Of a DNA stretch of 64,000 nt, positions 8,111-63,744 are shown in pieces. The notes under the pieces were generated by a model, which worked only from the letters and a program-made list of their open reading frames with translations, was not told the DNA's origin and did no database searches. Numbering within the stretch: position 1 is the stretch's first letter; every line of letters begins with the position of its first letter. A program made the translations under genes and the position numbers. This DNA comes from Rhizophlyctis rosea. Lineage: Eukaryota; Chytridiomycota; Chytridiomycetes; Rhizophlyctidales; Rhizophlyctidaceae. The stretch lies in the NCBI GenBank assembly GCA_027596075.1, contig JADGJC010000144.1, forward strand, positions 12,300 to 76,299, given 5' to 3'.

Positions 8111-9213
8111 ATGGCGTCCGCAAAGCAGGTGTGAATTTGACTTTCCTGTGCTCATTTTTCAATGTGCAAACTGAACGTCCATGATTTTCGCAGCATTATT
8201 CATATCTGCCAACAGATGAGGAAGGCTACACGGTCTCATTCATGCCAGACGACACGACAGCGATGTGCGAGTTTTTCAACAAACAGGGCGTCGTCGTCAT
8301 CCGCAACGTCCTTTCAAAGGCCGATTGTGATGCAACCGTTTCAGAGATGTTCGACATCCTGGAATCAGGAAGTGAGTTCCGTCGCGATGACATGAGCACG
8401 TGGAATTCCTGGCCAGCAGACAGCATCCCTCAGTACGGGAACATCTCCCGGCCTCCAATCTTCACTCCCCAATTCATCAAAAACCGCACGAACCCAACTC
8501 TCCACACCGTCGTCTCCAACCTAATCGGCCGAACAGATCTAATAGCCAACCACGACAGAGCAGGCTTCATGCGCCCCACAAAATCCCCAAACTCCCAACC
8601 ACAATGGAAAACAAAAGCCAACCTCCATCTCGACATGAACCCCTGCACCTGGCTCTCCGACCCAGAAGGCCACAACCAATCCTCCGTCATCGACGCCCTA
8701 ACCTACGACCGCCTCTCCGAATTCATAAACGAAAACAACCAACCCGTCCGCTCAAACGGCACATCAGTCCAAGCAGTCTACAACCTCATCGATAATGCTA
8801 AAGAAGACGGAGGCTTCGTCTGCGTACCCCGGTTCCACACCCGTTTCGCGGACTACTTCTCTACCCAAAGTCCGCCCGCAAACAACACACCAACATCGCC
8901 ATCCTACAACTTCCCGCGTAATCACGAACTGATGTCCCAAGCTCAGCGCGTGACGTCACGGGCGGGGTCGCTGATTGTGTGGGACCAGACGTTGCCGCAT
9001 GGGAGTTTTTCGAATGAGAGTGGGAGGCCGAGAGCGGCGCAGTTTTTGAGACTGTTTCCGAGAGGGGTGTTGAGGGAGGATCAGTTGAGGAGGAGGTTTG
9101 CGGTTGTGACGGTGGAGGCGGAGAAAGCCAAGGGGGAGGGGATTGATTGGACGGAGTGGGAGAAGAAAGCGTTGGGTGGGGATGGGGATTTTCAGTTGTA
9201 TGATGATGTGTAG
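8111..9213 (+). CDS. Phytanoyl-CoA dioxygenase (PhyH) family Fe(II)/2OG oxygenase
   Basis: Two exons, 8111..8128 (six codons) and 8194..9213, give 345 residues; the 65-bp intron is in phase. The iron facial triad is visible: HLD in NLHLDMNP (about H151 and D153) and the distal His in WDQTLPHGS (about H275), followed by the 2-oxoglutarate-binding Arg in GRPRAAQF (about R284). The N-terminal FFNKQGVVVIRNVLSKADC is the usual entry helix and strand of the PhyH fold. Family members hydroxylate varied small substrates, so the substrate cannot be read from sequence. No peroxisomal PTS1 is present (the protein ends LYDDV). The first half is C-rich and the last third G-rich on the sense strand. Confidence 0.85.
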
Positions 9214-9356
9214 ATAGCATTCAATTGTGAAGCATTCAAGTAAAGTAATGAAGGCAGCTGCGTGCGGCTGATGTTTGTATATTTGTACATGCAATATACC
9301 CCCGGACCCACATCTGTTCATTCGCTGGCTGAATTGCCCATTGACGCATTCTCTAC

Positions 9357-9878
9357 TCAATGTCCATCTGGTCGAGTACATTTCTCATCAGTCATGTCTG
9401 CAGAACTTCCAGCAACGATCTGCCGCCACCGCCTCAATTGCTCCAAAAACCCCATATTGATCCTAATCCCCCTCCTCCTCCCCCTCACAAACTCTACCGC
9501 CTCATCAACCTCCATACCCCTCCTCGCAACCAAATACCCAACAACAACAGCAGGACTCCTGCTCACCCCGCCCGCACAATGCACCAACACTACTCCCCTA
9601 CCCTCCAGCGCGCTATCTATAAAGTCTACAATGTCAGGCAGGTGGGATAAGAGATCTGCATCGGGTGAATCGGTAAAGTGAGCGCGATGGTACGTAAAGG
9701 AGGCGGGGAAGTGAGTCTTGCCCTGGAGGGATACGATATGGGTTATGTTGTGGGATTGGAGGAGGGGCAGGGAACGGGTTGGGCGGGCGGAGGAGAGGAG
9801 GAGGGAGGGGAGGATTTGGCGGATGTCGGAGGGGGGTGACCGGTGTGGTGTGGGATTGGACGATGCCATTCCTGCCAT
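9357..9878 (-). CDS. Dual-specificity protein phosphatase (small, atypical DUSP)
   Basis: Single exon, 173 residues. The catalytic signature VHCAGGVSRSP carries Cys101 and Arg107 in the HCxxGxxR loop; the upstream FTDSPDADLL supplies the general-acid Asp. It is followed by the AxxYL-type helix (VVGYLVARRGM). There is no MAP-kinase-binding or CBM domain, so this is a minimal DUSP that would dephosphorylate pSer/pThr/pTyr or a non-protein phosphate. It is convergent with the oxygenase gene, with about 140 bp between their stops. The sense strand is strikingly C-rich up to about codon 90 and G-rich afterwards. Confidence 0.9.
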   Translation of the reverse strand: MAGMASSNPTPHRSPPSDIRQILPSLLLSSARPTRSLPLLQSHNITHIVSLQGKTHFPASFTYHRAHFTDSPDADLLSHLPDIVDFIDSALEGRGVVLVHCAGGVSRSPAVVVGYLVARRGMEVDEAVEFVRGRRRGIRINMGFLEQLRRWRQIVAGSSADMTDEKCTRPDGH

Positions 9879-10505: not shown

Positions 10506-11906
10506 CTAAAGATCGTCCAGCGACAACGAGGCCAACTGCGCCAGCATACAATCCTCCTTCCCCAACTTACACACAGACTTCCACCTCGCCACCTCCAACG
10601 CCTTCGCAACCGCAAAATCCCGCCTCGCCACCGCCTCCTCATACATCACCAAACTATCCCCCCTAGCCTCCACATTCGCCCCGGCATCCAACAACACCTC
10701 CACAACCCCCGCATGTCCCGCCTTAATCGCCTTGAAAAGAGCTTCATCCCGATCCAAATGCACATCCGCCCCACGTTCCACCAAAAGCTTCACGACATCC
10801 ACAAACCCACTCGCCGACGCATATTGCAATGCCGAGTCCCCGAGAACACAAGTATCGGCTCCACTTTCAAGTAGCACTCTCATGACATCCGCACGACCCG
10901 TCATAGCAGCCTCCTGCAAAGCTTGACCGTTGTTGACGTCAATGAGCGTCTTCCCACCATGCTTTGCCAATAAACGCACCATCTCTAAACTACGACGCTT
11001 ACAACTCTCCAAGAACGTGTTTCCGTCGCGAGAATGGACGTCCGCACCACCCTCGATAAGACTCTGCGCCATCGGAAGGTCAGCCCCGGCCACTCCCAAA
11101 GCAAGAGGCCCATCCTCGCCAACGTGGACGTCGACGCCGCCCTCCAAAAGCGCTGTCACGGTCTTCCGATACCCGCCCGAAATGGGTATCGCCCACATGC
11201 TAAGTGCATCAATCAGCGCACCAGCTTTCAGGAGCTCCTTCACTAAAGTATGATGATTCTTCTTGACGGCGTTCTGTAGTGCTCTATTTGCTTCAGGTTG
11301 GGTATAGGTTTGGGCTTTGAGGAATGTCATGAGAACGTCGTGATGGCCTTGTGTTGCGGTGTTTTCTAACGCCTTTGAACCTGCTACGGTCGCGCCGAAT
11401 TTGAGGAGCAACTTGACAACTTCTAGGTGGTTTGCAGAGGCGGCTAGCAACAGAGCCTTTTGATTGCCATAACACACATCTGCTCCTCGTTCAATGAGGA
11501 ACTCGGTTGTAACAACTCGTCCGCATCCTGCTGCAGTGGCCAGAATAGAACCTGTAGCTGCAGATCGTCCCTCGGCGTCCAGGGCAAAGCGGAGCAGGTC
11601 CGTGTGACCGTATTGGGCGGAAATATGTAGCAGTTGCTTTTTGTCGCGCGGGTTGGCGGTGGGGAAGAGGGGTTTGATGATGTCCAAGTGGTTGTTTCGG
11701 GCTGCCCAGCGCCAGCAGTTGGTAAAGTCCCGGTGATAGAGTCTCCAAGTGCCTTCAGCCCAGACGAGGTCCTTTGTTGTGATGATTTGTTTGAGAAGGC
11801 GGTTGCAGGCACGAAGGTTTCGGCCACTGAGTGGGTCGGTCCATCGCACAATGACGGTGAAGAGTTCTGAAGGCAAGATATCTATGATGGACGGTTGGCT
11901 CGGCAT
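10506..11906 (-). CDS. F-box-like plus ankyrin-repeat protein
   Basis: Single exon, 466 residues. An N-terminal F-box-like segment (about residues 8-45: ILPSELFTVIVRW ... NRLLKQIIT) is followed by roughly ten ankyrin units from about residue 65 to 430. Typical turns include GHTDLLRFAL, NHLEVVKLLLKFGA, GRADVMRVLLESGAD and GFVDVVKLLVERGADVH. This architecture fits a substrate adaptor of an SCF ubiquitin ligase, with ankyrins as the target-binding part. The target is unknown. Such genes are often expanded in chytrids. The F-box is divergent, so Skp1 binding is inferred. Confidence 0.8.
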   Translation of the reverse strand: MPSQPSIIDILPSELFTVIVRWTDPLSGRNLRACNRLLKQIITTKDLVWAEGTWRLYHRDFTNCWRWAARNNHLDIIKPLFPTANPRDKKQLLHISAQYGHTDLLRFALDAEGRSAATGSILATAAGCGRVVTTEFLIERGADVCYGNQKALLLAASANHLEVVKLLLKFGATVAGSKALENTATQGHHDVLMTFLKAQTYTQPEANRALQNAVKKNHHTLVKELLKAGALIDALSMWAIPISGGYRKTVTALLEGGVDVHVGEDGPLALGVAGADLPMAQSLIEGGADVHSRDGNTFLESCKRRSLEMVRLLAKHGGKTLIDVNNGQALQEAAMTGRADVMRVLLESGADTCVLGDSALQYASASGFVDVVKLLVERGADVHLDRDEALFKAIKAGHAGVVEVLLDAGANVEARGDSLVMYEEAVARRDFAVAKALEVARWKSVCKLGKEDCMLAQLASLSLDDL

Positions 11907-12721: not shown

Positions 12722-12911
12722 GGGAACCGGAAATCAACAAGTTAGTTTTGCTTAGGCCTTTATGAACATGACGACCCCCCTTCACATGGAGCAACACATC
12801 AAAATGATGGCTGATGCATGTTGACCAGCTTCCCATTTTCGCACATATTCTGATTCATAGCAATGAGCACTGGGCTTCCACCACATGAAACATTGGTGAG
12901 ACCGCACTTAC

Positions 12912-14738
12912 TCAAGCTTCCTCACCACTTTCCCCATCACTGTCATCCCCACCCTCATCCTCCTCCTCCTCCATTCCATCATCCCACTCCTCATCCTCCG
13001 CATCATCATCATCAAACATAAAATCGTCACCATCACCACCCTCCTCCTCCTCCTCATCAACACCATTCCTTCCACCTCCCCCGTCCCCTGCAGCCCGTAA
13101 ACTCCTCTCCATACACTTCACCACCAATGTGTCAGCACCATTCACCCCCGCTACCCTCCCCAAAACCCCCTCCCACTCCTCCCTCCTCATCCCACTCCAA
13201 TCCCCCTCCAAAACAACCCTCAAAAACTCCAACCGATACACTTCCCAATGATCCTTCCTCACATCCAACGGCCGGACCCTTACTTTCCCTTCCACACCCC
13301 GTAAGCCCTCCAACCACGTATCACCATCCGCCTCATCCTCCTCCGTGTTCTCAGCATCCAGCTCTCCCAAGAAGATATCAATAAACTGCCATAAAGTCAC
13401 ACCCTTCCACCCCTTCAAATACCCCACTAAAACCCTCAAAACCCCCTCCCGCCACCTCTCCTGCCCTCCACACCTTTCCATCAACACCTCCACATCCCGC
13501 CGTCTCCGCAAAAATCTAACTTCAACTCCAAAATAACTATCCAAAACCATCAAATCCTCATTCCCAAAGCTACACCTCCACATCCCATTCATACCCCATT
13601 CCCCATACGCTGCTAAATCCCTCACCAAGGCGTTACGGTCCGCAACATACATCGCATGCGCCCACTGGATTTTATCATCTTCCGTCCAGTGTGCGGGCGG
13701 GTGAAGTAGTGGGGAGACGATGAGGCCCGGTGTGTTGGAGCTGATGTAGGTTTTGATTGGTAAGGTGAGGATCGAATGGATCAAATCAACTGGTGTGATC
13801 GCAACATTCCCAATCCCATAATCAAGACACGCGTTCAATATCGCTGCCGTTGGATGTGACTGCGACATATGGGCTGTCCACAGCCCCGATGCGGAATGGA
13901 GGTGGTGGAGGAGGGAGCGGAGGTTGGTGTGGTGGAGAGTGATTAGCGTTGAATCGGTTTTGCGGTATTGTCCAAGATAGTGTTTGTAGCTCTTATCGTA
14001 TGGTGGGTGGGGTGTTGTTTGGAGGTGGTGGATGTAGGTGTGCCAGTGGGTTGCGTTGCAGTTCCAGAGGAGCCAGTTGGAGAGGGATTTGAGGACTTGC
14101 TCAAAGAGAGTTAGGTTGCAGATGCGGATGGCGGCGTGGATCCATTCCATGTATGCTGGGTTTGGGACGGGACAGTGGGATGTCATCATTTCTCTCCATA
14201 CTGTGTCTTTGTAGTATTCTTGGAAATCTCTGGTGGGTAGGCGGTCTATGTAGATCCGGATGGGGATCATTAAAGCAGGCCCAATGATGGGTTCGAAACT
14301 TGTCCAGAATTCGGGCAGGTCGAGGATGGCGTTCATTAGGGAAATGATTCTCAACCGGAGATCAGGAACGGTTTGGAGGAGGATCGCACGTGCGCGGAGC
14401 ACGAAAAGGACATCTTCCCACACGGGATGGGACGTCAACCTCTCAGTTTTGAAAAAGCTTGGCCAGCGGAGAAAGAATTGTGTGACTGTGAATGCATCGT
14501 TGGAGTGGATGAACTGCAACACTTTAGCAGGGTCTGGGTGGCCGTCGCGTAACAGGGTTGACCGAATTCTCTCCACGCGGCTCTCAGCTGGAAAGCAAAT
14601 CTTTAGAAACAGCTGACGGAAGAATCGGCAGGATTGGGATAGTGCGAGTGTTTGTGCGGGTGGGAGGGAGGTGAGGATTAGGGTTGCTATGTCGTCGTTT
14701 GTGGTTATGGTTGGGGTGGGGTGGAGGGGAGTGGTCAT
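12912..14738 (-). CDS. F-box-like protein with acidic C-terminus, function unknown
   Basis: Single exon, 608 residues from the ATG at 14738 (the frame is open further upstream but without an ATG). Residues about 15-55 (ATLILTSLPPAQTLALSQ, then CRFFRQLF) resemble a degenerate F-box. The middle is helical and Trp-rich with no repeat that I can name. The last 50 residues are almost all Glu/Asp/Gly (EEEEEGGDGDD, EEEEDEGGDD), a disordered acidic tail. A substrate-adaptor role is inferred only from the F-box-like start. The sense strand changes from C-rich to G-rich near 13660. Confidence 0.65.
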   Translation of the reverse strand: MTTPLHPTPTITTNDDIATLILTSLPPAQTLALSQSCRFFRQLFLKICFPAESRVERIRSTLLRDGHPDPAKVLQFIHSNDAFTVTQFFLRWPSFFKTERLTSHPVWEDVLFVLRARAILLQTVPDLRLRIISLMNAILDLPEFWTSFEPIIGPALMIPIRIYIDRLPTRDFQEYYKDTVWREMMTSHCPVPNPAYMEWIHAAIRICNLTLFEQVLKSLSNWLLWNCNATHWHTYIHHLQTTPHPPYDKSYKHYLGQYRKTDSTLITLHHTNLRSLLHHLHSASGLWTAHMSQSHPTAAILNACLDYGIGNVAITPVDLIHSILTLPIKTYISSNTPGLIVSPLLHPPAHWTEDDKIQWAHAMYVADRNALVRDLAAYGEWGMNGMWRCSFGNEDLMVLDSYFGVEVRFLRRRRDVEVLMERCGGQERWREGVLRVLVGYLKGWKGVTLWQFIDIFLGELDAENTEEDEADGDTWLEGLRGVEGKVRVRPLDVRKDHWEVYRLEFLRVVLEGDWSGMRREEWEGVLGRVAGVNGADTLVVKCMERSLRAAGDGGGGRNGVDEEEEEGGDGDDFMFDDDDAEDEEWDDGMEEEEDEGGDDSDGESGEEA

Positions 14739-18097: not shown

Positions 18098-21000
18098 TCA
18101 CAAAATCCCTCCACCCCCTCCAAACCCATTGATCAACTCCTCAACATCCACATCCTGCCCCGCCCCACCAACACCCCCCGCGCCACCCACCCCACCCGCC
18201 CCCACACCCCCAACCCCCCCAAACCCCCCCAAAACACCGCGTTTAAAAAAAAAANNNNNNNNNNCCCCCTCATCCCCCCACAAAGCACTCGGTATCAAAA
18301 ACTGATTGAACAGCTCCGAAAACACAGAGTCACCTAACCTAACTCCCCCAGTCACACTGCCATTCGCCACAGACGCCGAACCATCAAGTGGCGGAACCGT
18401 CGGCGACGGCGTCTCGGGCGAGAAGAACCCAGACGATGTTGTTGTGGATGTGAGGGGTGTGGCTGTCGTTGTTGTGTCGGGTGTGGGTGGTGCGGGTGGT
18501 GTGAAGGTTTGTTGCTGTTGCTGCTGTAGTTGGTGTTGTTGCTGTGACAAAGGTAATGGCGTCACGACGGGGTGTACGTACTGCGGGATGATATGCGGAT
18601 GTTGCTGCTGTTGTTGATACGGAATTCCCATCATCTGAACCCCCGACACGACAGGTACACCACCACCCTGATGCGGCACACCCATACCACCCGGCTGAAC
18701 CACAACCGGAATCCCAACTCCAACCGGAACCGCTTGATAAACAGGCGCACCCGCCGCATTCCCCGGACCAGAACTCGTCAGCACAACCCCCTCCATAACC
18801 TTCACATCCTGCAACGAGTGCTCCGGCAGATGGCTCAAATGGATCGGTGGTGGACGGCGCGGGTCGGAGAGCACGGGACCGTAATGTGTTGGCGGTCCCT
18901 GTCCCTGTCCCATCCCACTCCCAGCACCACCACCATGCTCCCCCGGCGCATAAGGGGGCAAATCAAACGATCCACCCCTCTGCTCCTCCTCCACACCCGT
19001 CATAGCCTCCGCTCCACCTGCCGATCCATCCCCCCTCCCCTCCTCCCATTCTTCCCCGCCACCTCCACCACCCTTCCGTCCTTCTCCACCCTCCTCACCC
19101 GCCTCCCCCTCCCCCTCCTTCTTCCCCCCTCCCCCAACCCACCCATCCAACCCAACCCCATTAGCCCTCAAACACTCAAAAATCAACCCCGCATAATGAA
19201 CACTAAACATCGCAACATCCTTCATCTTCTCAAAAACCCTCAAACTACTCTTCAACTCCCCCAACGCCTTAACACCCTCCTCGCTAACCTCCCCTCCCTC
19301 CTGCCTCCCAACTTTCGCCCTCTTCGCCCTACTCTTCCCTCCCTCAGCAGAAGTATCAACACCAAACGTTCCGAGAACCATGTCGAGGAAGAGCGTGGAG
19401 GCGGTTAAGCCGGCGTAGACTACGACGGGCATGACGAAGACGAAGGGAGATTCTTTCCCCCCATCGGAGGAGGAGGAGGAATCACCCTTAACAGGCAACG
19501 CCTCAAGAACCTCCAATATCCCCCTCGCACTACTCTCACAAACACGACTGAACCGCCCCGTCTTCATCCGTTCCAACAATATCACCGTCGTATGGTACAT
19601 CACCCACAAATGGTGATGGAACCCCCACTTGGCGCCCTCACCCTGCGGTTGCGCGACAAGATCCGGCGGGAGGAGACTGTGCCATTGGTTCAATTCGGCT
19701 TCAAGGTCGTGTGCGACTTCTTGTTTTGATGGGCGGTTCGGGCGCGTGGGGCGGTTGACGTGGTTCGCAATGCGCCCGAGGATGGAGCAGAGGGCTACGT
19801 GGCGGATCATGCGGTCGACTTCGCCGTCTTCTTCTTGGCGGGGGAGGGGGGTGTCCCAGTCTGTTGTAATGGAGAAGATCAGCAAATGTTTATACAGAGT
19901 GAGCAATTCTGGAGGATGCAAAGGGGAATGCTCGATCACATAGGACAAATATAGAACCCAAGCGTCACAATCCCGCCCCATTAACCCCAACTCCAAACCA
20001 ACCCAACCCCACCGCAACCCGCACCAAAAAATTGAAACAAACCACACAAAAAAAAAAAAAAAACTCACCATCATCATCAACAGCAAAAGGCCTCCCCTCA
20101 ACAACCCCAACATACCGATCCAAAATATACAAACAAAACCACGTCCCCCTCATAGTCTCCTTCATCCTCTCACTCAACCCCGGATTCCTCACATTATCCA
20201 AATTCCGATGCATCCCCAACTCAACCGCCTGTCGATGCGCGATCCCAATATAATGGTAACTGCTCGCGTTCCTATTCGTTCCCATCCCCACTAGCGCCAA
20301 CAGCAAAAGTCCCTGTATATTGTTGATATGCGGCCAGTCGAATTGTTTGCCTAGCAATACGCGAGCTTGCTGGAAGAACGCTTGGTGGAGTTGTTGGGGC
20401 GACGAGATGCCCCACCGTGTGAGTGAAGGAGTGTGTTGAGTTACGAGGGCGCACATGCTGTTGAGGAGGAAGGAAAAGTGTTCGGTTTTCTTTTCTTTTA
20501 GTTGGCGGAGGAAGCGCATGCGGTCGATCATGGGGAAGTAGGGGTGGAGGTGTTGGAAGTAGAGAGAGACGAGGTGGTGCTGTTTACGTAAATGAAGAGA
20601 AAGACAATTTTCCATGACTTAGCCAAACCGCCAGAAAATTTCGGCCATTCTCCTTTCCACACGTACCAGCAATTCGGGGGAGCACGGCGGCGCATCCATC
20701 GGCTGTATGTTGACAGGCGTCGCATCGGAAGACAACGATATGGACATGACACCATCGCTGAACCGCGGACTTTGGCGCCACGCAGCTGTATTGGATGTCG
20801 ATGTGCTGCCAAAGAAGAGAACGGTGTCCGTTGCCACATCCTCCACAATCGTGATCCCCCCCTTGCCACTATTAACCCGATGCGCAACCACACTATCATG
20901 ATCCAACGCCACACTCTGCACCAATATCCCACTCTCCGGGCCAGGCACTGTCACTCCATTCTGCCACTGCACGTTCCCCGTGCTAGGCAGCTCCGACACG

Positions 21001-22152
21001 CGCGAAGGGTCCAGTGCGCGAGGGCGGTAAATGGCCAACGCGATGCCCTTGAAGCCGGAAAAGTCGGGCGAGTCGGAGGGCTCTGTGTCGGAGACTTCGG
21101 ACTCGCTGTCGGAGAGTTCGTCGATGGATGTACGTTTTGGTGAGGATTGGCTGGTCGGTTCGTCGGGTGCTGGATCAGAGCCGGATATGAGGCCGCGGAC
21201 GAGGACTTCAACTGTTTTTAGACTTTGTGGAATGGTGTGTATGAGTATGTGATTCTTTCTGTTTCTGACCACCCAACTGACAAGTCGCGAATCGGTTTCG
21301 AACGAGAGCCTTACTCACCGAGAACGCAGTGTAGACTGGGGAACCGGCTTTGGAGCTTCAACTCGCTTTGGCGGTCCGCGCTTCTTTTGTGGAGCCGTGT
21401 AAGCTGTGATATAGAGTGAATGTAAGTCGAGTTCACATTGAAAACATTGATCATGCCATCACCATCCACACTTCTCCATTTTAGCGCCCGCTTCTCTCCT
21501 CACCAAACCACTCGAAACCTGTTCGCTACGCTCACAATAGTGTGCCGCCCCCCCCCTCTCCCCCCAACATCAAACTACCACGCACCACTCAACCAACCCA
21601 CTCAAACACACACAAATACTCACTGCAAGGAAACCCAAACGCCAAACACCCTTCACAAGGCTGCGTCCCCGCACACTTAGTTCTCTTCCTCCTACAAGTA
21701 TCACACGCCCTACTCGCTCTTGTCCTCTTCGTCGGGCCCCTGTACGTCGACAAATCCACCGGCAAGGGTTCATAGAGCGGTGCGGGCGTTGATGGGGCTT
21801 GTGGCTGCTGCTGCTGTTGCTGCGGAGGAAGAGGAGGAGAAGGAAGCGGAATTTGTGGTTGCGGTTGTGATTGCGACTGTTGTGGTGGCTGCACGGGTAG
21901 TTTCTGGTTGGGGCGTGGGGGTATGGGGGGCGGGAATTGGCGTTGGGTTGGGTGGGAGAGGGGGGTGGGCATTTGAGGTGATGCGAGGAAGGTTGTTTGG
22001 AGGGGGAAAGTGGTGTAGTGGAGAGGCTGTTGTTGTTGTTGTTGGTGGAGTGGTTGTTGGGTGTCTTGCGAGTCTGTTGGACGGGGCGGGATCAGGTGGA
22101 AGGTGTATTGAGTTGGTTGTTGTAAGTCGGGTGGGTGGTTTGAGTTGTACAT
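18098..22152 (-). CDS. Zn(II)2Cys6 fungal-specific transcription factor
   Basis: Exons 22152..21624, 21403..21319, 21222..20667, 20579..20069 and 19860..18098 join in phase to about 1147 codons. The N-terminus is Gln/Pro-rich. The binuclear zinc cluster (about residues 150-176) reads CDTCRRKRTKC, then CEGC and FPC; exon 2 then gives YTAPQKKRGPPKR, the usual linker. Exons 3-5 carry the regulatory (Fungal_trans) domain with LHPYFPMIDRMRFL, YHYIGIAHRQAVELGMHR, LYILDRYVGVVEGRPFAVDD, DWDTPLPRQEEDGE and ALCSILGRIANHV. The C-terminal third is low complexity (Gly, Gln, Thr, Pro) and contains a 10-N gap, so the end is provisional. It is a nuclear DNA-binding regulator; targets are unknown. The exon 3 donor was moved inside the open frame to restore the domain, which shows that frame length alone misleads here. 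Confidence 0.85.
18255..18264. other. Assembly gap (10 N) inside the transcription-factor gene
   Basis: Ten N follow a run of ten A and precede a run of C. The reading frame stays open on both sides at the written length, but the true length is unknown, so residues around the gap are unreliable. Confidence 0.99.
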
Positions 22153-24339: not shown

Positions 24340-27300
24340 ATGCACAAACCGCCCCCCCTCCCAACCCACACCCCACCCCGCACACCCACAAAACCCTTTC
24401 CCCCTCACAATCACTACCACCGCCCAACAATAACAGCCAACTCCCTAGGCCGCCTCCTCCGCACACTCATCCTAACCCTGATGTGCGGCCTCGTCATCGG
24501 CGCGCTGTATTATGCTGTTGAGCCGTGGAGGGTGTTGTGGGGGATTGAGAGTGGGGGTGGGTGGAGTTGGGGTGGGCAGCAGGAGGTGGGAGGTGTGGGA
24601 GTGAGTAATGCGACTGGGAGTGTGGTAGGAGATGAGCAGTGGATGGGACATGCAAAGCCGGTGCTTTTGGAGAGGTTTTTGGGTGGGGATCGGGGTTGGA
24701 GGGATGTGGAGAAGATGGAGTTTGTTAGGAATGTGAGTTCTTATTTCTGCATTTTGGGTTTGTTGGCGGAAGCTGGGCGCGGGGGAGGGGGTGTGTGTGA
24801 GTGTGTGTGAGTATGTGAGTGTGTGAGGGGCGGGGGCCTGGGAGATGGGTTGGGTTGATTCAGGTTTGAGTGTGTCCACATATATTGAAACTTGAAAGCA
24901 ATTGTAACCACACTTGCAGATGATGATCCACGCCTGGGACTCCTACACCACCCACGCCTCCCCCTCAGACGAACTCCGTCCCCTCGCCCGCACCCCTCAA
25001 AACTGGTACACCAACCCACTAGACCCCCAAAAAACACCCCACACCCTCCTTCTAACCCCCATAGACGCCCTCGATACCCTCCACATAATGAACCTCACAT
25101 CCCGATACACACACGCAAAAAACCTAATCCTCACCCACTTCCCCTCCTCCCCACCACTAACAATCAACGTCTTTGAATCCACCATCCGAATCCTGGGAGG
25201 CCTCCTCTCTGCATTCGATCTGACGGGTGATAAGGCGCTGTTAAGCAAGGCGGAGGAATTAGCAGATAAGATGATTAAGGCCGGCGTGTTTGATACAGGC
25301 GCTGGGTGGGCGTTAAATTGGTGTAGAGTTGATGAAGGGTGGAGTTTGGGATCGAGTGGAGGTGTTTATAATGTCAATTTAGCGGAGATGGGGACGTTGG
25401 GGTTAGAGTTTCAGTATTTAGCGGATGTGACGGGGAGGGAGGAGTTTATGCAAAAGGCACTCTTCATTTATGAACAACTACACGCCATGCCGCGGAAGTA
25501 TAAGGGCTTGTACCCTACGGATTATCACCCGGATAAATTGGAAGCTACGAGTGGTGAGTGTTTGTGTCTGTTTTTTGAATGGTGGTTGTGGAACTCAAGC
25601 GGTGGGGGAGGGGAGTTTTCAGTGGTGCTGTGGAACTCGGTTGGCGGGGGAAGGAGAAGTCAATCAGTTTCACTCTACGCAACTTCCTGTCTTTAATCAA
25701 ATTTTTATCTGAAGAACGCTACGGCATCGGCGCAGCCGCGGATTCCTTCTACGAGTACCTTCTCAAACTGTGGTTATCGACGGGCGAGAGTCGGTATAGG
25801 GAATGGTATGATGAAAGTGTTGATGTGAGTTTTTCGTTCGATTGGTGCTTTTCGGAGCAATGGGGATGGAGTGGGGGTCTACGTAAATCTCCCAAATGAT
25901 GGCGTCTGTTATCAACTCGTTATTCTGAACAACGTCTACAGGCAATCAGCGACCATTTAGTACAACATACGGCAGACGGGAAGGAGTGGTATGTCCCTGA
26001 TGCGTATTGGTGGGAGGGTGCGCAGAAGGGTGGGGGGTTGAATCCGCAGAGTTCGTTTAATCATTTGGTGAGTTTTGGAAAGGGCGCTTGGATGTCGGGT
26101 TCCATTTGGTTTCCCCCAACCTTCAGCAAACGAAATGCCTCACCAAAAACCCCAATCACCATCCAACCAGACCTGCTTCGCCGGCGGCCTCCTAACCCTC
26201 GGCTCCCTAACAAACCGCCACAAAAACTGGTCCCACCACCTCTCCCTCGCAACCCGTCTAGCCGACACCTGCGTAAGAGCATACACATCCACCTCTACCG
26301 GCCTGTCGGGCGATTCGATAGACCCAACACGTCTAGCGCACCCAAACGACCCGAAATGGGCTCTTCGCCCCGAACTTGTGGAAACACTCTTCTACATGTG
26401 GCGTCTGACGCACGACACCAAATGGCGGGATATAGGATGGGAAATTGCACAAAAGGTTGAGAAGTATTGTCGGGTTGAGGGTGGGTATGTCGGGGTTTTG
26501 GATGTTACGAGGGGTGGTGAGGATGAAGAGCGTAAGGCGTGGATGCCACGGGAAGGGAGGGATGGAGATGTGATGGATACGTGGTTCCTCGGCGAAACAC
26601 TCAAGTATCTTTACCTACTTTTCACGGACGACGATGTGGTACCACTTGAAGAGTATGTCTTCAACACTGAGGCGCACCCACTTTCTGTGAGGGGGAGGGG
26701 ACGGAGACGAGATCCCAACACGTGGGTGAGGATACCGGATGGGGTTGATGTAAAGTGGTACCGTGACGTCGGCAGCGTCATCGATATATCAGAAGAATGG
26801 AAGCAGAAACGACAGAAGGGGATGGACCGGTGGAGGGAGGGGGAGGAAGCTAAGAGGCGGGTTGCGGAGGAGGAGGAGATGAAAAGACGGGTTGAGGTGG
26901 CTGAGAGGGAGGAGAGGGAGCGGGTTGAGAAGGAGGCGGGGGAGAAAGTTCAGAAGAAGGTATCGACGGGTATGAGTCCGCTTGAGAGGGAGAAGGAGAG
27001 GATTCGGAAAGTTGAGGAGGAGAGGGAACGGGAGTTGAGATTGAAGGAGATTAGTGCGCAGGAGGAGGAGAAGAGGAGACTGATGCGGAGTGGGGATAGC
27101 AGCCAAAAACCAGTTGTGGACCAGCAGCAGGATGGGAGGGGTGGAGGTGATGTGGGTGGTATGAGGCCACCGCCTAGTGCGATGGGGGTTGGGAAGAGGG
27201 TTGGTGGGGTGAAGGTTGGTGGGGAGATGAAACAGCCGGAACATCGACATAAGGAGGGGGAGAAAAGAGTTGGAGGTGGGGCACCGGCTTGGGCTGTTGG

Positions 27301-52388: not shown

Positions 52389-54607
52389 TCAAACCATCCC
52401 AGCCTTCTCCATCCTCTCCCTCTCCTCCTTCTCCCTCAAATACCGAATCTTATCCTGCTTAGCCCGATCATTATAAACCCTCCTCTCCTCCGGCCCCAAC
52501 TCCTTCCACGCCGCCGATATCTTCTGACTAATAACCCCAACCGTACACCCCGGAAACCTTGCCGTATACGCCGGCCTCACCTCCGCTAAATAATAAAGGA
52601 AACTCCCCGTGGGTTTCTTCACTCCGCCTTTATCCTTCTTCTTCTTTTTCTTGTCGTCTTTTTTGTTGGTGGTGCTGTTGGTGTTGGTGCTGCCTTTGCG
52701 GTTTTTGTCTCTTTTCGAGGAAGAGGGTGGGGAGCCGGCGGGTGAGATGGGAGAGGGGAGACCGGTGTGGTGGGAGGAGGGGGCGCCGTAGTGGTTGTCG
52801 GTAGGGTATCCCATTAGGTTGTCGAAGAGTCCGGGTTCGCCGAGGGTGAGGCGTTCTTCGGGGCTAGGATATGGTTGTGCTTTTCCAGGCTTGTTCTTCG
52901 ATCCTTTATCTTTCTTCCCATCGCCAACACCGTTGTTCTCCGTCGCCCGCTTCTTCTTCTTCGCCCGCAACGCCTTCATCCGCTCATACTCCTCTTTGAG
53001 CTGCTTGCTCTTCGTCACGTATCTCTGCTTCTCGTCCGGTCCCAGCCCGCGCCACTGCTCCCCAATCAATCGTGAGATGTCCGATACCGTGAACGAGGAC
53101 TTTTGTCCCGCACCCGCCTGCATCTGTAACTGTTGCTGTAGCTGTGGTCGCATTTCTTGGTTGAACACAAGGAACGCGTTCATGGGCTTCTTCGTCTTGC
53201 CGTCAGCGCTGGCGGCGTCATCGCTGTCATCGTCCACTTCATCCGAGTCATCATCGTCCGGCCCCTTCTTCCGCTTCCCGCTGCCGTCATCCTTCTTCTT
53301 CTCACCCTTGACACGGCCCCACACATACTCCGGATGCTCCTTGACGAACTCTGCCTTCATCTCCTTGGCCCGCTGCACGTACGAATCCTTCTCGATCGGA
53401 TCCAGCCGCTTCCACTCATCAGAGAGCAGCCGACTGACCGTTGCTGTGGTCATCGTAGGATCCATGCGCCGAAGTTCCTTGCCTCGCGTTTGGGAGAAAA
53501 GGAAGTAGGAGTTGACTGGTCGTTTGACTTTTTCGACCACGGGGGCAGCTGGTGTTTGCTGAGGTGGCGTTGCGGCGGGAGATGGCGTTAGCGTGTTGTT
53601 GGGAGGAGCAGGTGAGCTGATGGACGAATTGAAGGATGCAGTTGGAATGTTGGATGGACGCGCTTGCTGTGGCATGGCGCGTCCGTGAAACGATACGTTG
53701 AAAGGGTCGGGATTGTGCGGATTGTAGCCGCCAGTCGCTTGATTGTTGAAGGAGTGATTTGAGACGAGTTGAGGGATTTGCGGCATGTAGGCATTGGGAG
53801 GCGATTGGTGGTGATTTTGCGGACTGACGCGGGGCATGTTGTATTGATGTTGCGGGTTTGTCGTTGGTGCATTTCTGGACTGAGCCGGTGATGTTGTCGC
53901 AGGAACATTATGCTGATGATGTTGTTGATTAGGATAGTAATGCGATGGATCAGCTAGTGCGCGATTGGCAAATGGATCGGCTGACGGCTCGATGATGGAC
54001 TCGATGGAACCCAGCAAATCGTTCGAAATGTTGCCGGGACGTGCCAACGCTGATCCCCAAGCGGGATCCGTGCTGTTGGATAGGAAGTTATTGGGAAATG
54101 CGGGTCGTCCAGACGCTTGAGCGTTATTTGGCATAGGCGAAGCATGGGTGAGCGACGACAAGGGAGGGAAATTTCCGGTTTGGTTATTCATTGATCCCGC
54201 GAAAAGCGAAGACTGTTGATGTTGCCCTTGTGCTTGGTTTGCGTATTGTTGCGGAAGTGTAGAAGCATTGGCTCCGGAGTTCATATCCGGCCATTTCGGA
54301 TTGAGAGACTGACTGAAGAGACCGGATTGATGTTGCTGCTGTTGCTGTTGCTGATCTTGCGGAAAGTATTGCGGATACCTTCCTTGCGGCATGTTATTCG
54401 GTTGATGTGATGATTGCATTGGAGGGAGTACCAGAGATGGTAATGAGCCATGGCCCGTCATTGTGTAGGGTTGCTGGTATTGTGCGGTCTGAGGGCCTGT
54501 TGATTGATGCATGTTAGAGAGATGATGCTAGGTCAACCTGCTAAACATAACTCACCGGCGAAGCCGCCATATTGGGGATGCGACCCCATATGTTGATTTG
54601 AATGCAT
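52389..54607 (-). CDS. Triple HMG-box protein
   Basis: Two exons, 54607..54556 and 54496..52389, give 719 residues beginning MHSNQHMGSHPQYGGFAGP; without this splice a 707-residue form could start at an ATG (54512) that lies inside the intron. Residues 1-330 are Gln/Asn/Pro-rich and disordered. Three HMG boxes follow: about 340-410 (KRPVNSYFLFSQTRGKELRR), about 453-535 (KKPMNAFLVFNQEMRPQLQQ, then ISRLIGEQWRGLGPDEKQRY) and about 644-710 (KKPTGSFLYYLAEVRP, ISAAWKELGPEERRVY). Basic KKKK patches between boxes supply nuclear signals. Multi-HMG proteins bend DNA and act in chromatin, rDNA or sex regulation; which applies here is unknown. The first box resembles the sequence-specific type, the third the non-specific type. 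Confidence 0.88.
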
Positions 54608-57581: not shown

Positions 57582-60340
57582 ATGGTCGCCCCAACCCACC
57601 ATCCTACAACCCAACCATCCCAATCCACCCCTACCTCTCCTCTCGTCTCTCCCACCGGATTCACAGTCCCACCACCCTTCATCACCCGGTCAGATGTCAA
57701 AGACACAATCCAAAAAACATCGGCATTGGTGAAGGCGGCAGCAAAGTATAGGGCGACGCTGGGATTACTTGCAGCTGTGACAGGGGATTTGGCGGATGCG
57801 ATTGGCGATTTGTCGAGATGTAGATCGGTGGTGGCGGTGTCGAGGGGGGAAACGGGGGGTATGTTTTCGTGTTTTTGAGTGGGATGGGGTGTTGTATTGT
57901 GTAGGTTGAAATGGCGGCTGATGTGTACTCTTTGCGCGTTGTAGAGGCTATGAAGCATGTTGGGGAGCTGCATGCGTTGATGTCGAGACAGTTGCGGGAA
58001 CTGGTAAGCTGAATGCAAGGTGATTGGTCTCGTGAGAGATTGTGTGCTCATAAAATATCAATTCCAGGCGGAGCGAGTGCAAAGAGACGTTGAAGAGCCT
58101 GTACATAAGAGTATTGATGAGCATAACGCGCATGTTGCGGTAAGTTTTGCTGCGATCACAACCGGCCCAATCATTCATCAATGATGGGGTTAAACTTGAA
58201 GTTAGCAAAACTAAACCTTTCTTTGCGACGTCAGTGGAATGAGAAGAATATCTTGCAGATGAAGAATGGCATCCAAGATAAGATTAAGAAGGCTGAATCT
58301 GAGACGCGGAAGAAGAAATCTCGAGATCCGGATCAGTTACAGCAGGTAGGACGTGCCATTCAATCGGAGTGTACTAGATAGACGCTCGGTCTGACACGCC
58401 GACTTGTCACTTCAACAGGCACTCAAGAATCTCAACGCATACACAGCTGAACTTCACGACCTGAAGTTTGTGCATCAGCGAGCGATATTGAACGAGGAGA
58501 CTCGTAATGTCAGGAAAATTCAATCTCATTGGAGCGCCCTACTTCGCCGCCAGAGTGAAATGCATTCGGGATGGGGACTCAGCGGATACAAAATCGCAGA
58601 GGAGCTGGTGAAACCTATTGGTGCTGAATCGCAGAATGGTAGCTTACCCAGAAGTCAGGATGATGTGAAGGGAGCGGAGAAGTACGGGGCCAGTCGGCAA
58701 TCTATGGATCAGGAGCGGGCGAAGGCGCTGCAGAGGGAAAGGACATCAAATGCTGCTGTTGGGCCATTACCACTTCGACCATCATCAGCTGGCCCACCAC
58801 CTCGTACCGACTCGAAGCAACAACAACAACAACAACCACAAAATTATAAAACCGTAGCGGGTCCTCATAATCCACAAAACAATGGAACAACACAATCACA
58901 ACCATCATCGAAATTGGGTCCTGAATTCATATCCAGTAGTGCCCCAGCTTCGCATACTCATTTGTCGCGACGCGGATCATTAGACAGCAACACTGGATCA
59001 TTCACGAACGCTATACAGCTGGATACCCCCTTGCTAGGAAGTCTCTCCCTCGAACGAACCTCATCATCATCAACACTGGATGACGTCAAACTAGCAAGAT
59101 CACCTCATATACCGGTCACAGCCACCAATAACTCTTCATTAGCATCGACCCTTTCGGTCACACCGGCAGCGACCGTCAAACAGCCTCAACCACCATCAGT
59201 TACAACAACCGCCGCTACGATCCCGCCAGTTGCAGCGACGACGGCAGTACCATCAACAACAACAGCAACAACCACACCCGCAATACCGCCCCACGTCACC
59301 CAAACCGCCACCCCACCCCCCTCACCACCAACTTTACCCCAATCAGCTCTCACTAAACCCGCTACAACAAACGACGACAAAACCAAAGATAAAGAAAAGA
59401 AGCGAGTCCGGTTCCCGCATCAACAGCCCATCGCGACCGTCGCGACGGAATCAGATTCTGAAGACGAGGATTTGACGTCTCTGGAAGTCCCTACGCATCC
59501 CACGACGGCCACACCAGGCAACCTCCAATCAACCCTCTCCACTCTCTACCCCCACATTTTCGGCAGCGAGCGACCGGCACTGAGCAGCGTTCCCGTCCAA
59601 CGTGTCGCTGTTTCCGGGAAAGACAGTTCGGGAAGCGTCGGCAGCGCCTCAGGCCTAAATCTAATGAATAGTAATCCGACGAAAGGGAGCGTGACGCCGC
59701 CTTCTGCAAGTGGGAGCGTGAGAATGGTAGCGGTGAAGATGCCGGAAGTGTATGTCAGTCAAGAAGCGGATGTGGAGAGTCAGATGGGGAGTGTTGTAGG
59801 TGTTAGTGAGAGTTTGGTGGGGTTACCGAAGGAGGTTGATATGGTGTATGCTATTCATGATTTTACGGCGAGGAGTGCTAAGGAGATGAGTTTGGCTAAG
59901 GTTTGTTTGTTTTTGGGGTCTGTTTTAGGTGTGGGTGCGGTTGGGGGCACAAGTAGATTGAACGGTTCGGCACTTTGCGCACATCCCACAGGGCGATGTC
60001 ATAACTGTTCGGAAACGCCAGGGGACGTGGATATATGGGACTAAAGTTCCTCGATCGAAGACTCCGGGAGGAGGAGCGGGGGCAGGGCAACAGGCTGCGA
60101 ATGCGGCGAATAATAAGTCGTTTACGGATCGGTTCCGGAGGGGGCCGCCGCAGGCTGGTGGTGGTGGGGCGGGGGAGAGTCAGAGTGGTGGTGCGGCGGG
60201 GGAGACGCCCGCTGTTGGGTGGATTCCTATGGCTTTTGTTGGTAGGTTTCGTTTGGTGTATGGGGTTGGGGAAGTTGTTGAATGTGTGCTGATGCTACTT
60301 TCCTTTATTTGGGTTTGCAGCCAAGTTCAGTCCAAATTGA
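57582..60340 (+). CDS. I-BAR (IMD)-like and SH3 domain protein
   Basis: Seven exons (57582..57858, 57945..58003, 58068..58139, 58235..58345, 58419..59900, 59992..60241, 60321..60340) join in phase to 756 residues. Residues about 25-245 form a helical bundle: DTIQKTSALVKAAAKYRATL, AMKHVGELHALMSRQLRELA, WNEKNILQMKNGIQDKIKKA and VRKIQSHWSALLRRQSEMHS, the pattern of an I-BAR/IMD membrane-curving domain. A long Ser/Thr/Pro-rich linker follows, with acidic SDSEDEDL. The C-terminal SH3 domain begins MVYAIHDFTARSAKEMSLAK and ends GWIPMAFVAKF, with a Gly/Ala/Pro insert of about 55 residues between the WIYG and GWIP strands. This layout matches IRSp53-type actin-membrane adaptors; F-BAR or other BAR classes remain possible. 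Start ATG 57582 is the likeliest; one at 57552 is in frame. Confidence 0.75.
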
Positions 60341-61950
60341 TGGGTACCATGTCAGGGACGTAGATGATGGTGCATAGTTGAGAGTTGCAGGAACGGACTC
60401 TTTTTTTTTTTTTTTCCTTTTTCGTTGGAGGGAGTAAAAATTGCTCCCGTTTTGTTTTATGTTTTTGGTGTATGTTTTTTTCTGTTACGATTTTTCCTCT
60501 TGAGGAAATATGTCCTTTCTGTTTACATGTCCGTGTTTTGGGAGTTGTTTGTGAAGAAAATAGTAAATGTTTTTTTTTGTTTTTGTTTTGGGTCGTTAGT
60601 GTCCTGGTGTTTATACAGTATAGAAATGTTTGTTTTGGTTTGTTTTGGTGTGGTGTGTATGGGTCGAGTTTAATGTAAAAGATGAGGGTTGAGGGAATGA
60701 TACTTACATCGGAAACTGTCTATGGGATAGGGTGCGCAGAACACGCCCATTGATTGGGCTGTCCAACTGGTGTAGCGAACATCGCTGTTGTTGCGTTGGG
60801 GATGAAAACTGCCATTCTTTGATTCGGGCAAAGTTCCTTTACTACATGGTTCTTTCGAGCAATCAGCGACAGAAAACAGCAACCGGCAGCTGCCAGCAAA
60901 CTGCTTTCGGGTCTACGCCATCGCTTCGGGTCCGTAACAATTTGTCTTATACGCAATCACGGATCGGCGGCATCTGCACATATGGCGTCAAACACCGATG
61001 AAGAGGAGTAGTGGCTTCATATGGCTTTCTATTCTCCTAAGTTGTGGTGAGTTGCCCGCTTTCGCACTGGCATTTGCCCATCGTATGGCCATCCATTGCT
61101 CCAATGCCTTACGTGGCTGCAGTATGCTACTGAGTCGATTTGCTTACATGCTATGTGCTAGTTGCATAGGTGTCTCCGACTTGATGGACCAATGTAGAGC
61201 GCCCGTTCTGCCATGTCACATCGTCAACGATACTGCCGCGGAATTGGGTTAGGGTGGGTCGGCACCCTATGGCGGACTCTTCAATAGCGTGTAGCCGCAT
61301 GTTACAGGGAGATGATGACAGATATTCTGGTTGAATGTCACGGCTCCATATCAAGATATTATGGCATCCGATTGAACAGTATTTGGTTTACATTTCGTCC
61401 ATTGCGGCAGTCAAAATCTTTCGACATCTGCGGGACCATTATGCCGCGTCTACCATGTCATTGGCTCCAGGTGAGCATTTGATCATCCGAAATGGAGAGC
61501 ATCGTCAGTAATACCAGGCTAAGTATACCTCGAAGCTTTCTGCACGTTCGGCATGGCCCTGACTGCAAAGAAGTTTTCAAAATTGATATCTTCAAAAAGG
61601 GATACCGAGAAGGGTAAAAGGACCCTGAATCGCTGTGCCACTTCGGTCGGCACAGCCCAAACACAAATGCAGGAAATGGAACGTGCTCAAGCCACAAAAT
61701 AGAATGTTCCACATTCTCACAAACGAGATCGTGTCAATGCTGACGTGAGCAGATATCCTCCATTTTATTTTTCAGATCTCAGCCTTTGAAAACAAAATCT
61801 TCAACGCAAATGAAGCACCCTCCCAAACCATCAACAGCAAAAAACCGTACGGGTCGCCACCACTTTTATTCCGGCAACTGAAATCATCGACAGGCATATG
61901 GCATCCATCGTCCCACCCGTAATCGGACTGGTTCACCAACCCCATAGGAA
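60341..61950. other. Intergenic, no confident gene
   Basis: 60390-60670 is extremely T/G-rich and probably 3' UTR. A minus-strand stretch near 60723-60833 has protein-like text (RMAVFIPNATTAMFATPVGQ) but no gene model. The remainder contains nothing recognisable apart from the promoter of the DUF1003 gene. Confidence 0.45.
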
Positions 61951-63744
61951 ATGAACGGTCGGAACAATAGCAAGAAGCGGGATGATGGTGTTTTGCAGGG
62001 AGCAGCTGTGGGAGGCGCGTCAAATCTGCTTGGAGACCCGCATGCACATATGCAGACCAACGAACTCACCATGAACAGCATGGAGCTGCGCGCCCTTGCC
62101 AGCGCTGCCTCCTTACATCCAGAAGCAGATACAACTCCCAGCAACGAATCATTGTACAGAGGAGACGGCGAAGGCACTCCGCTCATACCGTTACTCGACA
62201 CGACGCGGATGCCAATTGCGGATGCGGAGGGGTTACGGGAGAGGCGGACGAACCATAACCGGCAGGGCACTGACGAGTCGGACATAGAAGACATCAAAAG
62301 GAGGAACCAAGGGATGGGTGATGGGCAGCGTGGAGGAGGGTACTTTGGCAGCCGACGCGGCTCATATGATGCAAATATAGCAAGTCCACTAATGACCTCA
62401 CCCTCCTTCACATCCGACGGAGCCAATTCCCCAGACATCTCCCACGGCTGCGTCATCTGCCAACGACCCCTCCGCTCCCCATCCGACGAAGGCATCATCC
62501 CCCTCAAACGGATCAAACCCCGTTTCATGCGCCACCTCAAACGGATGTTCCCCACGCGCAACTTCAACGTCCAGGATGGCTACCTATGCGTTCGAGACGT
62601 CCAGGCTGTGCTCTCCTCTCGCATTGAGCACCTCCTGGAGGAGGATCGCTCGCAATTCTCACGTCTGCAGGAAGATGCGATGAAGAACGCTGCGCAGTAT
62701 GAGCTTGAGGAGGAGCATTGGCAGGATATATTTGAGAAGAAGCCTACGTTGGGGGAGGCGTCTGCGGATCTTGTTGCTGAGTGGGGTGGGTCTTGGAAGT
62801 TTTTGATTGGGTTGTTGGGGTTTTTGGCGATTTGGATGATGTAGGTACTCTGCTCCACGTCGATGCATGGTCTCATTCGTGATATTTGTCTCACTGTACA
62901 TCATTCGATCAATCCAGAATCAATTTGATCCTCGGTAAATTCGGTAGTGCATGGGATGAGGTGAGTTTTGCGGTCGGGTTCTCATCAGAATTGACCCTGC
63001 TGTTGACCAACCTATGTTAGTATCCCTTTGTCCTCCTCAACTTGTTCTTATCCACTCTCGCGGCTACACAAGCACCCATCATCATGATGTCTCAGAATCG
63101 ACAAGCGGAACGAGACAGAGCTCAAGATGTGAGTAGATATGTATCGAAAAGGTACATCGGATGCCGTCACTGAGAAAATTCACATCCGAAAGAACTATAT
63201 CAGCAAAATAACGATGCGAACCGAACTCCACGTCCGCCATCTCGACGCCAAAATGGACCACCTCCTCTCGTACCAATGGAAACGCCTCCTCGAAATCCAA
63301 GAACTCCAAATCGATCTCCTCCAAATCCTACAAGCTCAGAACCGCTCCCCCACCAGCTCTATCAAACCACGACCATCCCGCGAGGGATCACCGAAATCCT
63401 CCTCTCGCCGGTACTGGACTATCCAAACCCAACCCGACGAACATCTAGACATGCTGCTGAAACATTATTTCAAGCTTGTTGATAGTGGGAAGGATTATTT
63501 GCTCTTTAGTCGGTGGCATGAGGAAGGGGATAATTTTGTTGGAGTGTTGAGTGGGGTGGAGGTTGAGTGGAAGAGGGAGAGTATTTTGAAGAGTTTGAGG
63601 TATGAGGTTGGGTTTTTGGGGATGGGGGCTACGTTGGATGATGTGTTGAGTGGGGAGGGGACGGTGGAGTTGAGGAATGATTTTGATATGCCCGGGATGG
63701 AAATGGCTGGTGAGCTGGGGTTTTTTCAAATTTGGGACCATTGA
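61951..63744 (+). CDS. DUF1003 membrane protein
   Basis: Exons 61951..62840, 62918..62960, 63021..63128 and 63193..63744 join in phase to 530 residues. After a disordered start, a zinc-ribbon-like CVICQRPL (about 168) pairs with DGYLCVRD (about 211). Then comes the DUF1003 core: SWKFLIGLLGFLAIWM, a second helix YPFVLLNLFLSTLAA and the hallmark APIIMMSQNRQAERDRAQD, followed by RTELHVRHLDAKMDHLLSYQ. The arrangement equals that of bacterial DUF1003 proteins, plus about 150 extra residues at each end. Family function is unknown; two membrane helices with a cytosolic coiled segment are predicted. Introns show that it is resident in the nuclear genome. Such genes are mainly bacterial, so old transfer is plausible. 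Confidence 0.88.

Follow-up and report, generated by a model that had tools for sequence, protein, structure and literature searches.

Exon-scale alternation of C/A-rich and G/T-rich blocks on the coding strand of the chytrid Rhizophlyctis rosea

Why should the coding strand of a fungal exon begin rich in C and end rich in G? The question is raised by a 64,000-nucleotide stretch of Rhizophlyctis rosea (assembly GCA_027596075.1, contig JADGJC010000144.1, positions 12,300 to 76,299; hereafter the window), in which a sequence-only reading had noticed that genes on both strands pass from C-rich to G-rich codons, often at one visible point. We analysed the window together with 250 kb from elsewhere in the same 44.1-Mb, 634-contig assembly, giving a sample of 314 kb or 0.7% of the genome. 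On either DNA strand, a long exon is G/T-rich towards that strand's 3' end and C/A-rich towards its 5' end, with a sharp and mostly exonic wall between the two parts, and the opposite walls, from G to C, lie in introns, in intergenic unannotated DNA or in exons. The polarity is real, strong and present in nearly all sampled genes, and is far from what chance would give.

The comparison set comprised 25 usable tiles of 10 kb each from 20 contigs, two of them from the window's own contig (C51). Their positions were hand-picked before the sequence was seen, rather than drawn at random, and all come from the one genome; a further tile at the start of the window's contig (L022, C51:1-10000) consisted entirely of N and was left out. 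Genes were called with a home-made gene finder whose codon, intron and intergenic tables were conditioned on the local skew, which leaves it neutral as to the order of C and G; its models are predictions from sequence. A finder with a single codon table was discarded, having put part of one phosphatase gene on the wrong strand and missed skewed genes. The final version called 91 genes with at least 450 coding bases, at about 3.9 exons per gene, and placed none of 30 Pfam-confirmed open frames on the wrong strand; three of the 30 were wholly uncalled (Zn_clus, SHLD2 and one MYND), others in part. Forty frames each from the window and the tiles were compared with Pfam, the tiles containing 66 of at least 230 amino acids in all, and matches were obtained for 10 and 21 of them, respectively; exclusion of a weak IRX15 match below its cut-off left 20 tile frames in 13 tiles, and two retained matches also fall below their own cut-offs, an F-box-like match in L008 and the second TLC frame.

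Third-position GC skew, (G-C)/(G+C), rises from exon start to exon end in 85 of the 89 genes that have an exon of at least 240 nt, the length on which amplitude was scored (median 0.72). Fifteen of 17 window genes are positive (mean amplitude 0.95), as are 70 of 72 tile genes (mean 0.70). This gene-level excess of the window is only moderate (p=0.008) and the loci are alike, so we rejected the idea of the window as a special region, the impression gained from raw skew having been inflated. The window exceptions are the genes at 47908-49368 and 52389-53465, whose mean amplitude is negative, and one negative exon in each of the gene models at 15364-17108 and 32561-34525. Positive genes are equally common on the plus strand (35/37) and the minus strand (50/52), but this agreement is uninformative about sense because a C-then-G order equals its own reverse complement; the earlier appeal to minus-strand genes as an argument therefore carried no information. 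In metaprofiles around start and stop codons, the coding strand has a C bias at gene starts and a G bias at gene ends, with the blocks running about 100 nt ahead of start codons and about 60 nt beyond stop codons into untranslated flanks.

The same result was obtained from open frames with independent homology support, through comparison of third-position skew in the first and last 40% of each frame against within-frame shuffles of synonymous codons. The difference was positive in all 10 Pfam-confirmed window frames, nine of them at p<0.05, and in 18 of 20 tile frames, 13 of them at p<0.05, making 28 of 30 overall. In the dual-specificity phosphatase (DUSP) gene (9353..9878, minus strand; Pfam DSPc, 1.5e-26), skew moves from -0.67 to +0.74 (third-position difference +1.42), and the best switch falls at 0.53 of its 180 codons, near codon 95, with a wall at 9632. 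The convergent two-exon PhyH gene (8111..9213, plus strand; PF05721, 4.1e-11) moves from -0.42 to +0.44, with a best-fit step from -0.56 to +0.93, an abrupt wall at 8960 between its C and G blocks and a fourfold-site difference of +1.03; segmentation places an abrupt G-to-C wall between the two genes at 9287. The single-exon ankyrin-repeat gene (10506..11906, minus strand; Ank_2, 2e-40; nearest named match in Borealophlyctis, about 30% identity) moves from -0.40 to +0.64, lying over a plus-strand C block at 10405-11178 and a G block at 11582-12009. In the second frame of the ceramide synthase (TLC domain) gene, the change is from -0.66 to +0.87. These four genes, among those named in the sequence-only reading, all rise from C to G, as it had claimed.

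We found that the unit of this polarity is the exon, resetting at introns on average, rather than one sign change per gene. Internal exons of at least 240 nt (n=64) have a third-position skew, by eighths, of -0.48, -0.43, -0.44, -0.21, +0.01, +0.26, +0.42 and +0.47, and single (12), first (38) and last (37) exons have a similar profile. The sequence-only reading had proposed a gene or exon scale, of which the exon scale is borne out, and the average profile over the 314 kb is not the flat one that had been named as its refutation. Exon length matters up to a point: the switch is slight or absent below 120 nt and complete in exons of at least 260 nt, with no further gain in amplitude with length at 360 nt and above (rho -0.08). 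Across 190 predicted introns, flanking skew falls from +0.17 before to -0.13 after, 153 of the 190 changing in that direction, whereas pseudo-introns placed at exon middles show the reverse, only 31 of 123 changing in the intron-like direction.

Because splice motifs could pull false exon ends to G-rich or C-rich places, three additional checks were made on the intron reset. Among introns with strict motifs, 35 of 44 show the same fall in skew. Among homology-validated introns, defined as those spanned by a Pfam match in the spliced protein (43 junctions in eight genes, which are conserved and have many short exons), skew falls from +0.143 to -0.061, with 27 of 43 in the reset direction (p=0.0033) and 24 of 38 once window genes are removed (p=0.0095); the size of the reset is 0.20 here, compared with 0.30 in all predicted introns. 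On surrogate sequences made by shuffling within 30- or 60-nt windows, the finder called coding bases amounting to 4-6% of those in the real sequence, together with 5-6 long exons (at least 240 nt) as opposed to 166, and 1-3 introns as opposed to 187, so that false calls are too few to produce the result.

A segmentation of the plus strand that was blind to genes gave the same arrangement. Of the 142 C-to-G successions that it returned, 111 lie in exons and 3 in introns; the 135 G-to-C successions are divided among unannotated DNA (66), exons (42) and introns (27), and the alternation is broken by 31 C-to-C and 38 G-to-G successions. When abrupt walls near locus ends are set aside, an intron holds 23 of 68 G-to-C walls but only 1 of 100 C-to-G walls (p=1e-9). 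The GH47 alpha-mannosidase gene (24340..27382, plus strand) illustrates this: its five exons encode a spliced protein matching GH47 at 3.3e-120 over residues 132-593 (nearest named match Rhizophlyctis rosea, 55% identity), its C-to-G walls at 24479, 25225 and 26423 lie in exons, and its G-to-C walls at 24876 and 26113 lie in introns. The intron at 26068..26170 passes from G/T-rich to C/A-rich within 103 bases, between exon skews of +0.54 before and -0.54 after. The ceramide synthase gene (35938..37867, minus strand; three exons; spliced protein TLC, 5.5e-31) likewise has C-to-G walls at 36440, 36830 and 37548 and G-to-C walls in introns at 36676 and 37106. In the window, skew carries over splice junctions into introns, whose first halves average +0.21 and second halves -0.25, a G-to-C reset inside the intron; in the tiles, the skew of an intron half is correlated with that of the exon next to it (r 0.23 and 0.35). 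The expectation that the pattern would be absent from introns is therefore not upheld.

The change within an exon is a step, not a ramp. We aligned the 51 strong exons among 103 of at least 360 nt at their fitted switch, and observed a flat level of about -0.55 for 600 nt, a flat level of about +0.65 after it, and a change between the two within one 30-nt bin. Linear ramps simulated and fitted likewise also jump at the switch (-0.57 to +0.49), yet next to it their level drops to about 0.3-0.4, a sag that the data do not have. A shared logistic width is best at 10-20 nt, scales of 40 nt or more being worse by at least 54 log units (40 nt itself by 55), and simulations with a true scale of about 20 nt reproduce such a fit; the wall is narrower than about 100 nt. 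The switch at a single point that had been described is thus often present, and certain long exons hold two or three C-to-G modules without an intervening intron. A small AT-rich dip accompanies 26 exonic G-to-C walls (p=0.03); walls of this kind, which in the window include those at 13798, 18897, 19480, 33700, 34157 and 52896, could mark lost introns or hidden break sites.

What kind of pressure writes such a pattern? At fourfold sites of window exons, a first fifth with A.237, C.497, G.156 and T.111 contrasts with a last fifth that has A.115, C.093, G.517 and T.275, each nearly the complement of the other; the tiles show the same near-complementarity more weakly. The asymmetry is thus nearly reverse-complement symmetric, C and A dropping together while G and T rise, and in internal exons the third-position T/A skew climbs with G/C from -0.17 to +0.52. 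The skew difference declines from fourfold sites to position 3 to positions 1+2, both in the window (1.20, 1.07 and 0.59) and in the tiles (0.44, 0.37 and 0.10), and amino acids follow the blocks, the 3'/5' usage ratio in exons of at least 240 nt being 0.62 for T, 0.69 for H, 0.69 for P, 1.35 for V, 1.45 for E, 1.48 for M and 1.50 for G. Since the effect is ordered in this way and amino acids follow, we consider it likely that the asymmetry reflects a mutational, strand-symmetric, directional pressure and not codon selection. The sequence-only reading had taken the pattern for a polarity of synonymous codons that left protein character unchanged; the shift at positions 1+2, the extension into untranslated flanks and the amino-acid ratios correct both points.

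Composition imposed by the protein itself was considered as a candidate and is argued against by the F-box family. The F-box-like gene of the window (the name given by the sequence-only reading; 12912..14738, minus strand; a single 1827-nt exon with no Pfam match) has C-to-G walls at 13689 and 13849; that reading had put the switch near 13660. Two tile frames, in L028 and L029, are 32-33% identical to it, and the three frames (26-33% identity) all pass from C to G with switch columns that differ. Over alignment columns 450-575, the window copy has a skew of +0.4 to +1.0 with 61% of residues in the set GVEMWRKD and 12% in TPHNSIQ, whereas L028 has a skew of -0.3 to -1.0 with 26% and 41%, respectively, and L029 is mixed, with 45% in GVEMWRKD. 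Paralogues in opposite states at homologous codons indicate that the state moves the protein and the protein does not set the state. A search for close paralogues that could give the direction of substitution found none for the PhyH-DUSP-ankyrin region and only four short matches for the F-box gene.

The explanation that we favour as a whole is a directional mutation spreading from sites where DNA is broken or opened, although we hold it tentatively and with a little less than even confidence. Introns, promoters and terminators are AT-richer (GC content 45.8% in introns and 48.3% in unannotated DNA, compared with 53.4% in exons) and probably nucleosome-poor, and DNA might be broken or opened there. 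Resection from 5' to 3' would then expose single strands with 3' ends, belonging to the top strand on the left of the site and to the bottom strand on its right; if C and A on the exposed strand mutated preferentially, for example through deamination or error-prone fill-in, DNA would become G/T-rich on the left and C/A-rich on the right. Between two such sites the equilibrium would follow the ratio of exposure from either end, and the two ends of an exon would therefore saturate, one with C/A and the opposite one with G/T, with the effects cancelling in short exons. Meiotic breaks would be the most natural source; of two meiosis-type families tested in this genome, the HOP2 type matches well (PF07106, 2.5e-13) and the SPO11 type weakly and in part (PF04406, 28.2 bits, 26 of 62 positions). 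As a separate observation, at L006:625-2052 (plus strand), an open frame matches the OB domain of Shieldin complex subunit 2 (PF21669, 32.8 bits, cut-off 26), a family of DNA-end protection proteins that, to our knowledge, is not expected in a chytrid.

Several observations weigh against this explanation. The wall scale of 10-20 nt is too sharp for resection, whose tracts reach hundreds of bases or beyond; the plateaus keep their level over about 600 nt on either side; and exons of 2.2 kb and 1.8 kb have no neutral middle. Amplitude shows no regional clustering at the 10-kb scale (25 loci, 82 genes, analysis of variance p=0.50), which counts against a recombination origin because hot regions would predict clustering. 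GC in unannotated DNA does not follow skew strength (rho 0.11). With GC-biased conversion as a further candidate in view, block content was found to follow GC content overall (rho 0.66), in exons (0.45) and in introns (0.35, p=0.05). The 3'/5' ratio of C at fourfold sites is 0.40 before G and 0.43-0.55 before T, C and A, in composition at most a slight CpG effect; with the loss of C so alike whatever the neighbour, a strongly neighbour-specific deaminase (CpG, TpC) is not supported. First halves of tile introns are not G-skewed (-0.07, with -0.18 in second halves), and 42 of the 135 G-to-C successions fall inside predicted exons. At the 43 homology-validated introns the segmentation is neutral on both sides in 33, G-to-C in 4, C-to-G in 0 and one-sided in 6, and the reset is therefore not universal. 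Among five HSP70 loci examined, L033 (C357; a 1553-nt exon) and L037 (C294) are nearly all C-skewed without a clear G block, L034 (long exon) and L035 (last exon) end in a G block, and L036 switches twice; HSP70 genes are presumably highly expressed, and selection for C-ending codons may override the polarity there. Given the sharp wall, the flat plateaus, the absence of clustering, the weak CpG preference and the exonic G-to-C walls, we hold the mutational reading firmly and break-and-resection loosely: as the specific cause it is somewhat doubtful, and it does not account for the sharp step.

How do other explanations fare on the same evidence? One that is possible, though we think it unlikely, is transcription-coupled mutagenesis, in which phases of RNA polymerase II, R-loops or 3' antisense transcription expose opposite strands and splicing resets the pattern at introns. 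The near absence of a switch in exons below 120 nt is as expected if introns limit R-loops; the unit also matches exons, which RNA defines, and the blocks extend beyond start and stop codons into flanks. However, sense transcription alone would make exons G/T-rich throughout, so the C/A half would call for another process of equal strength and opposite sign in each exon; several exons carry two or three modules with no intron between; and two of the five HSP70 loci, presumably highly transcribed, are almost without a G block, although selection on codons could hide one there. For the gene-scale pattern, the published proposal is a mutational model based on transcription phases (McLean & Tirosh 2011, PMC3315797), the available text of which does not mention antisense transcription. 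The flat plateaus, the step within about 30 nt, the fitted wall scale of 10-20 nt and the different placement of walls in paralogues would suit a self-reinforcing two-state process, where local composition biases mutation or repair, C and G domains separate and boundary conditions at exon ends set their order. Yet the third-position skew values of 882 windows from long exons form a broad, not clearly bimodal distribution, and such a process would require a molecular agent as well as another cause to set the polarity; we regard this process as improbable.

Selection acting on RNA is far less probable still. A C/A-rich half followed by a G/T-rich half could pair, and G-rich flanks at GT-rich 5' splice sites with C-rich flanks at 3' splice sites would fit a need to keep splice sites free of structure. 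But 39 strong exons fold no better than their own 24-nt block shuffles (mean z -0.19, standard error 0.17), which leaves selection for RNA or single-strand hairpins unsupported, and such selection would have to rewrite amino acids and act in the 12 single-exon genes. We give the least credence, and very little, to an artefact of gene calling, whereby false exons would start at C-rich and end at GT-rich sequence. The finder is home-made, 5' splice motifs are GT-rich, the reset is larger in all predicted introns than in homology-validated ones, and the few long exons called on 30-nt surrogates lean from C to G (9 of 10, as against 5 of 11 on 60-nt surrogates). Nevertheless, the effect persists at Pfam-spanned junctions and in unspliced open frames.

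Further features of the window show how the blocks are distributed. The encoded GH47 mannosidase has an N-terminus rich in Pro, Thr and His from a C block and a long, low-complexity C-terminal tail rich in Glu, Lys and Gly from a G block. A seven-exon fungal transcription-factor gene model lies at 18098..21479 on the minus strand (Fungal_trans, 6.9e-31), all three of its exons of at least 240 nt passing from C to G; near it, a Zn_clus frame at 21592-22443 (4.3e-8) was missed by the gene finder. Repeated C-to-G modules occur in the gene model at 32561..34525 (minus strand), the frames of which have no Pfam match: its C-to-G walls are at 32964, 33399 and 34113 and its G-to-C walls at 33219 in an intron and at 33700 and 34157 in an exon. 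An HMG-box open frame spans 52389..54527 on the minus strand (HMG_box, 1.6e-45), the gene model covering 52389-53465 only; this exon contains several modules, with walls at 52645 and 53440 and a G-to-C wall at 52896 within it, a single switch is not significant (p=0.25), and its amplitude is negative. The nine-exon gene model at 57582..60377 (plus strand) overlaps a C block at 58764-59556 and a G block at 59710-60734, and its frame at 58395-60041 has no Pfam match. At the right end, a gene model at 61951..64000 (plus strand) has walls at 62636 and 63476, and the name DUF1003 given earlier to its last exon is not borne out by Pfam. Outside the window, a 15-exon gene model at L009:142-2793 (minus strand) encodes a coiled-coil protein, which to us reads like an intraflagellar transport protein and as such would suit a flagellated fungus.

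A further step, which we consider speculative and rather improbable as a whole, is that base composition maps recurrent opening or breakage of DNA, with introns, promoters and terminators as fixed sources, each long exon as the interval between two of them, and the composition phase-separated into C/A and G/T domains on either side of a wall tens of bases wide. If this were true, introns would shape how mutation falls on the coding DNA around them and would alter which amino acids the halves of an exon encode, and exonic G-to-C walls would mark hidden break sites or lost introns. If the form holds with transcript-supported gene models and in relatives, mutation of coding DNA would be organised by intron positions in a strand-symmetric manner, which published gene-scale explanations do not predict. 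It would also distort codon-usage statistics, protein composition and phylogenetics in lineages of this kind, as homologous segments can be driven towards opposite amino-acid compositions, and it may provide a readout of break or repair sites from sequence alone.

How, then, does the pattern relate to asymmetries already known? Transcription-associated asymmetry in vertebrate genes is an excess of G+T on the coding strand; as there, G changes here with T and C with A, but the vertebrate asymmetry keeps one sign over the transcribed region, unlike the sign change within exons of R. rosea. The belief that the polarity was undescribed does not survive at the gene scale: C-biased 5' ends and G-biased 3' ends are reported for almost all unicellular fungi examined by McLean & Tirosh (PMC3315797), whose data list includes Batrachochytrium and Spizellomyces. 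Both systems share the direction on the sense strand and the involvement of fourfold sites, amino acids and flanks. In the available text of that study, however, open frames binned from ATG to stop show linear ramps with a constant middle, flat AT skew and a similar effect at degenerate and non-degenerate positions, and exons and introns were not analysed (in the main text, "exon" occurs 0 times and "intron" once). Here, by contrast, walls are sharp, the skew resets at many introns and sometimes within exons, T/A moves with G/C at third positions, and fourfold sites show the largest effect; the share of positive genes is 85 of 89, compared with 33% of genes significant in C. albicans, although the tests differ. 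Among the matches listed, judged by titles and the starts of abstracts and with subscription papers mostly beyond reach, we found no earlier account of an exon-scale sawtooth. As far as these searches reach, the pattern has thus been only partly described before, its gene-scale skew being known and its exon-scale, step-like, strand-symmetric form new.

Other known systems resemble single parts of the pattern. According to the accessible text of Fujimori 2005 (PMC555766), plants and fungi have a GC skew (C>G) at transcription and translation starts, and we likewise observed a C excess at and just upstream of gene starts; that account covers gene starts alone, whereas exon ends, introns and the sign change are features of the present pattern. 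According to a review (PMC8945028, as available), SPO11 breaks in Arabidopsis occur preferentially in promoters, terminators and introns, and the positions of G-to-C boundaries here resemble these break sites. For human meiotic breaks, the available part of PMC7615360 describes new mutations that deplete C and A on the strand to the left of a break and G and T to its right, at hotspots set by PRDM9, over tracts of 1-2 kb and with a strongly CpG-biased C>T component. Unlike that system, R. rosea presents an equilibrium composition with little neighbour preference and far sharper walls in place of a smooth 1-2 kb spread; what the two share, with composition as the only measure here, is the direction of change and the involvement of both base pairs to the left and right of introns and gene ends.

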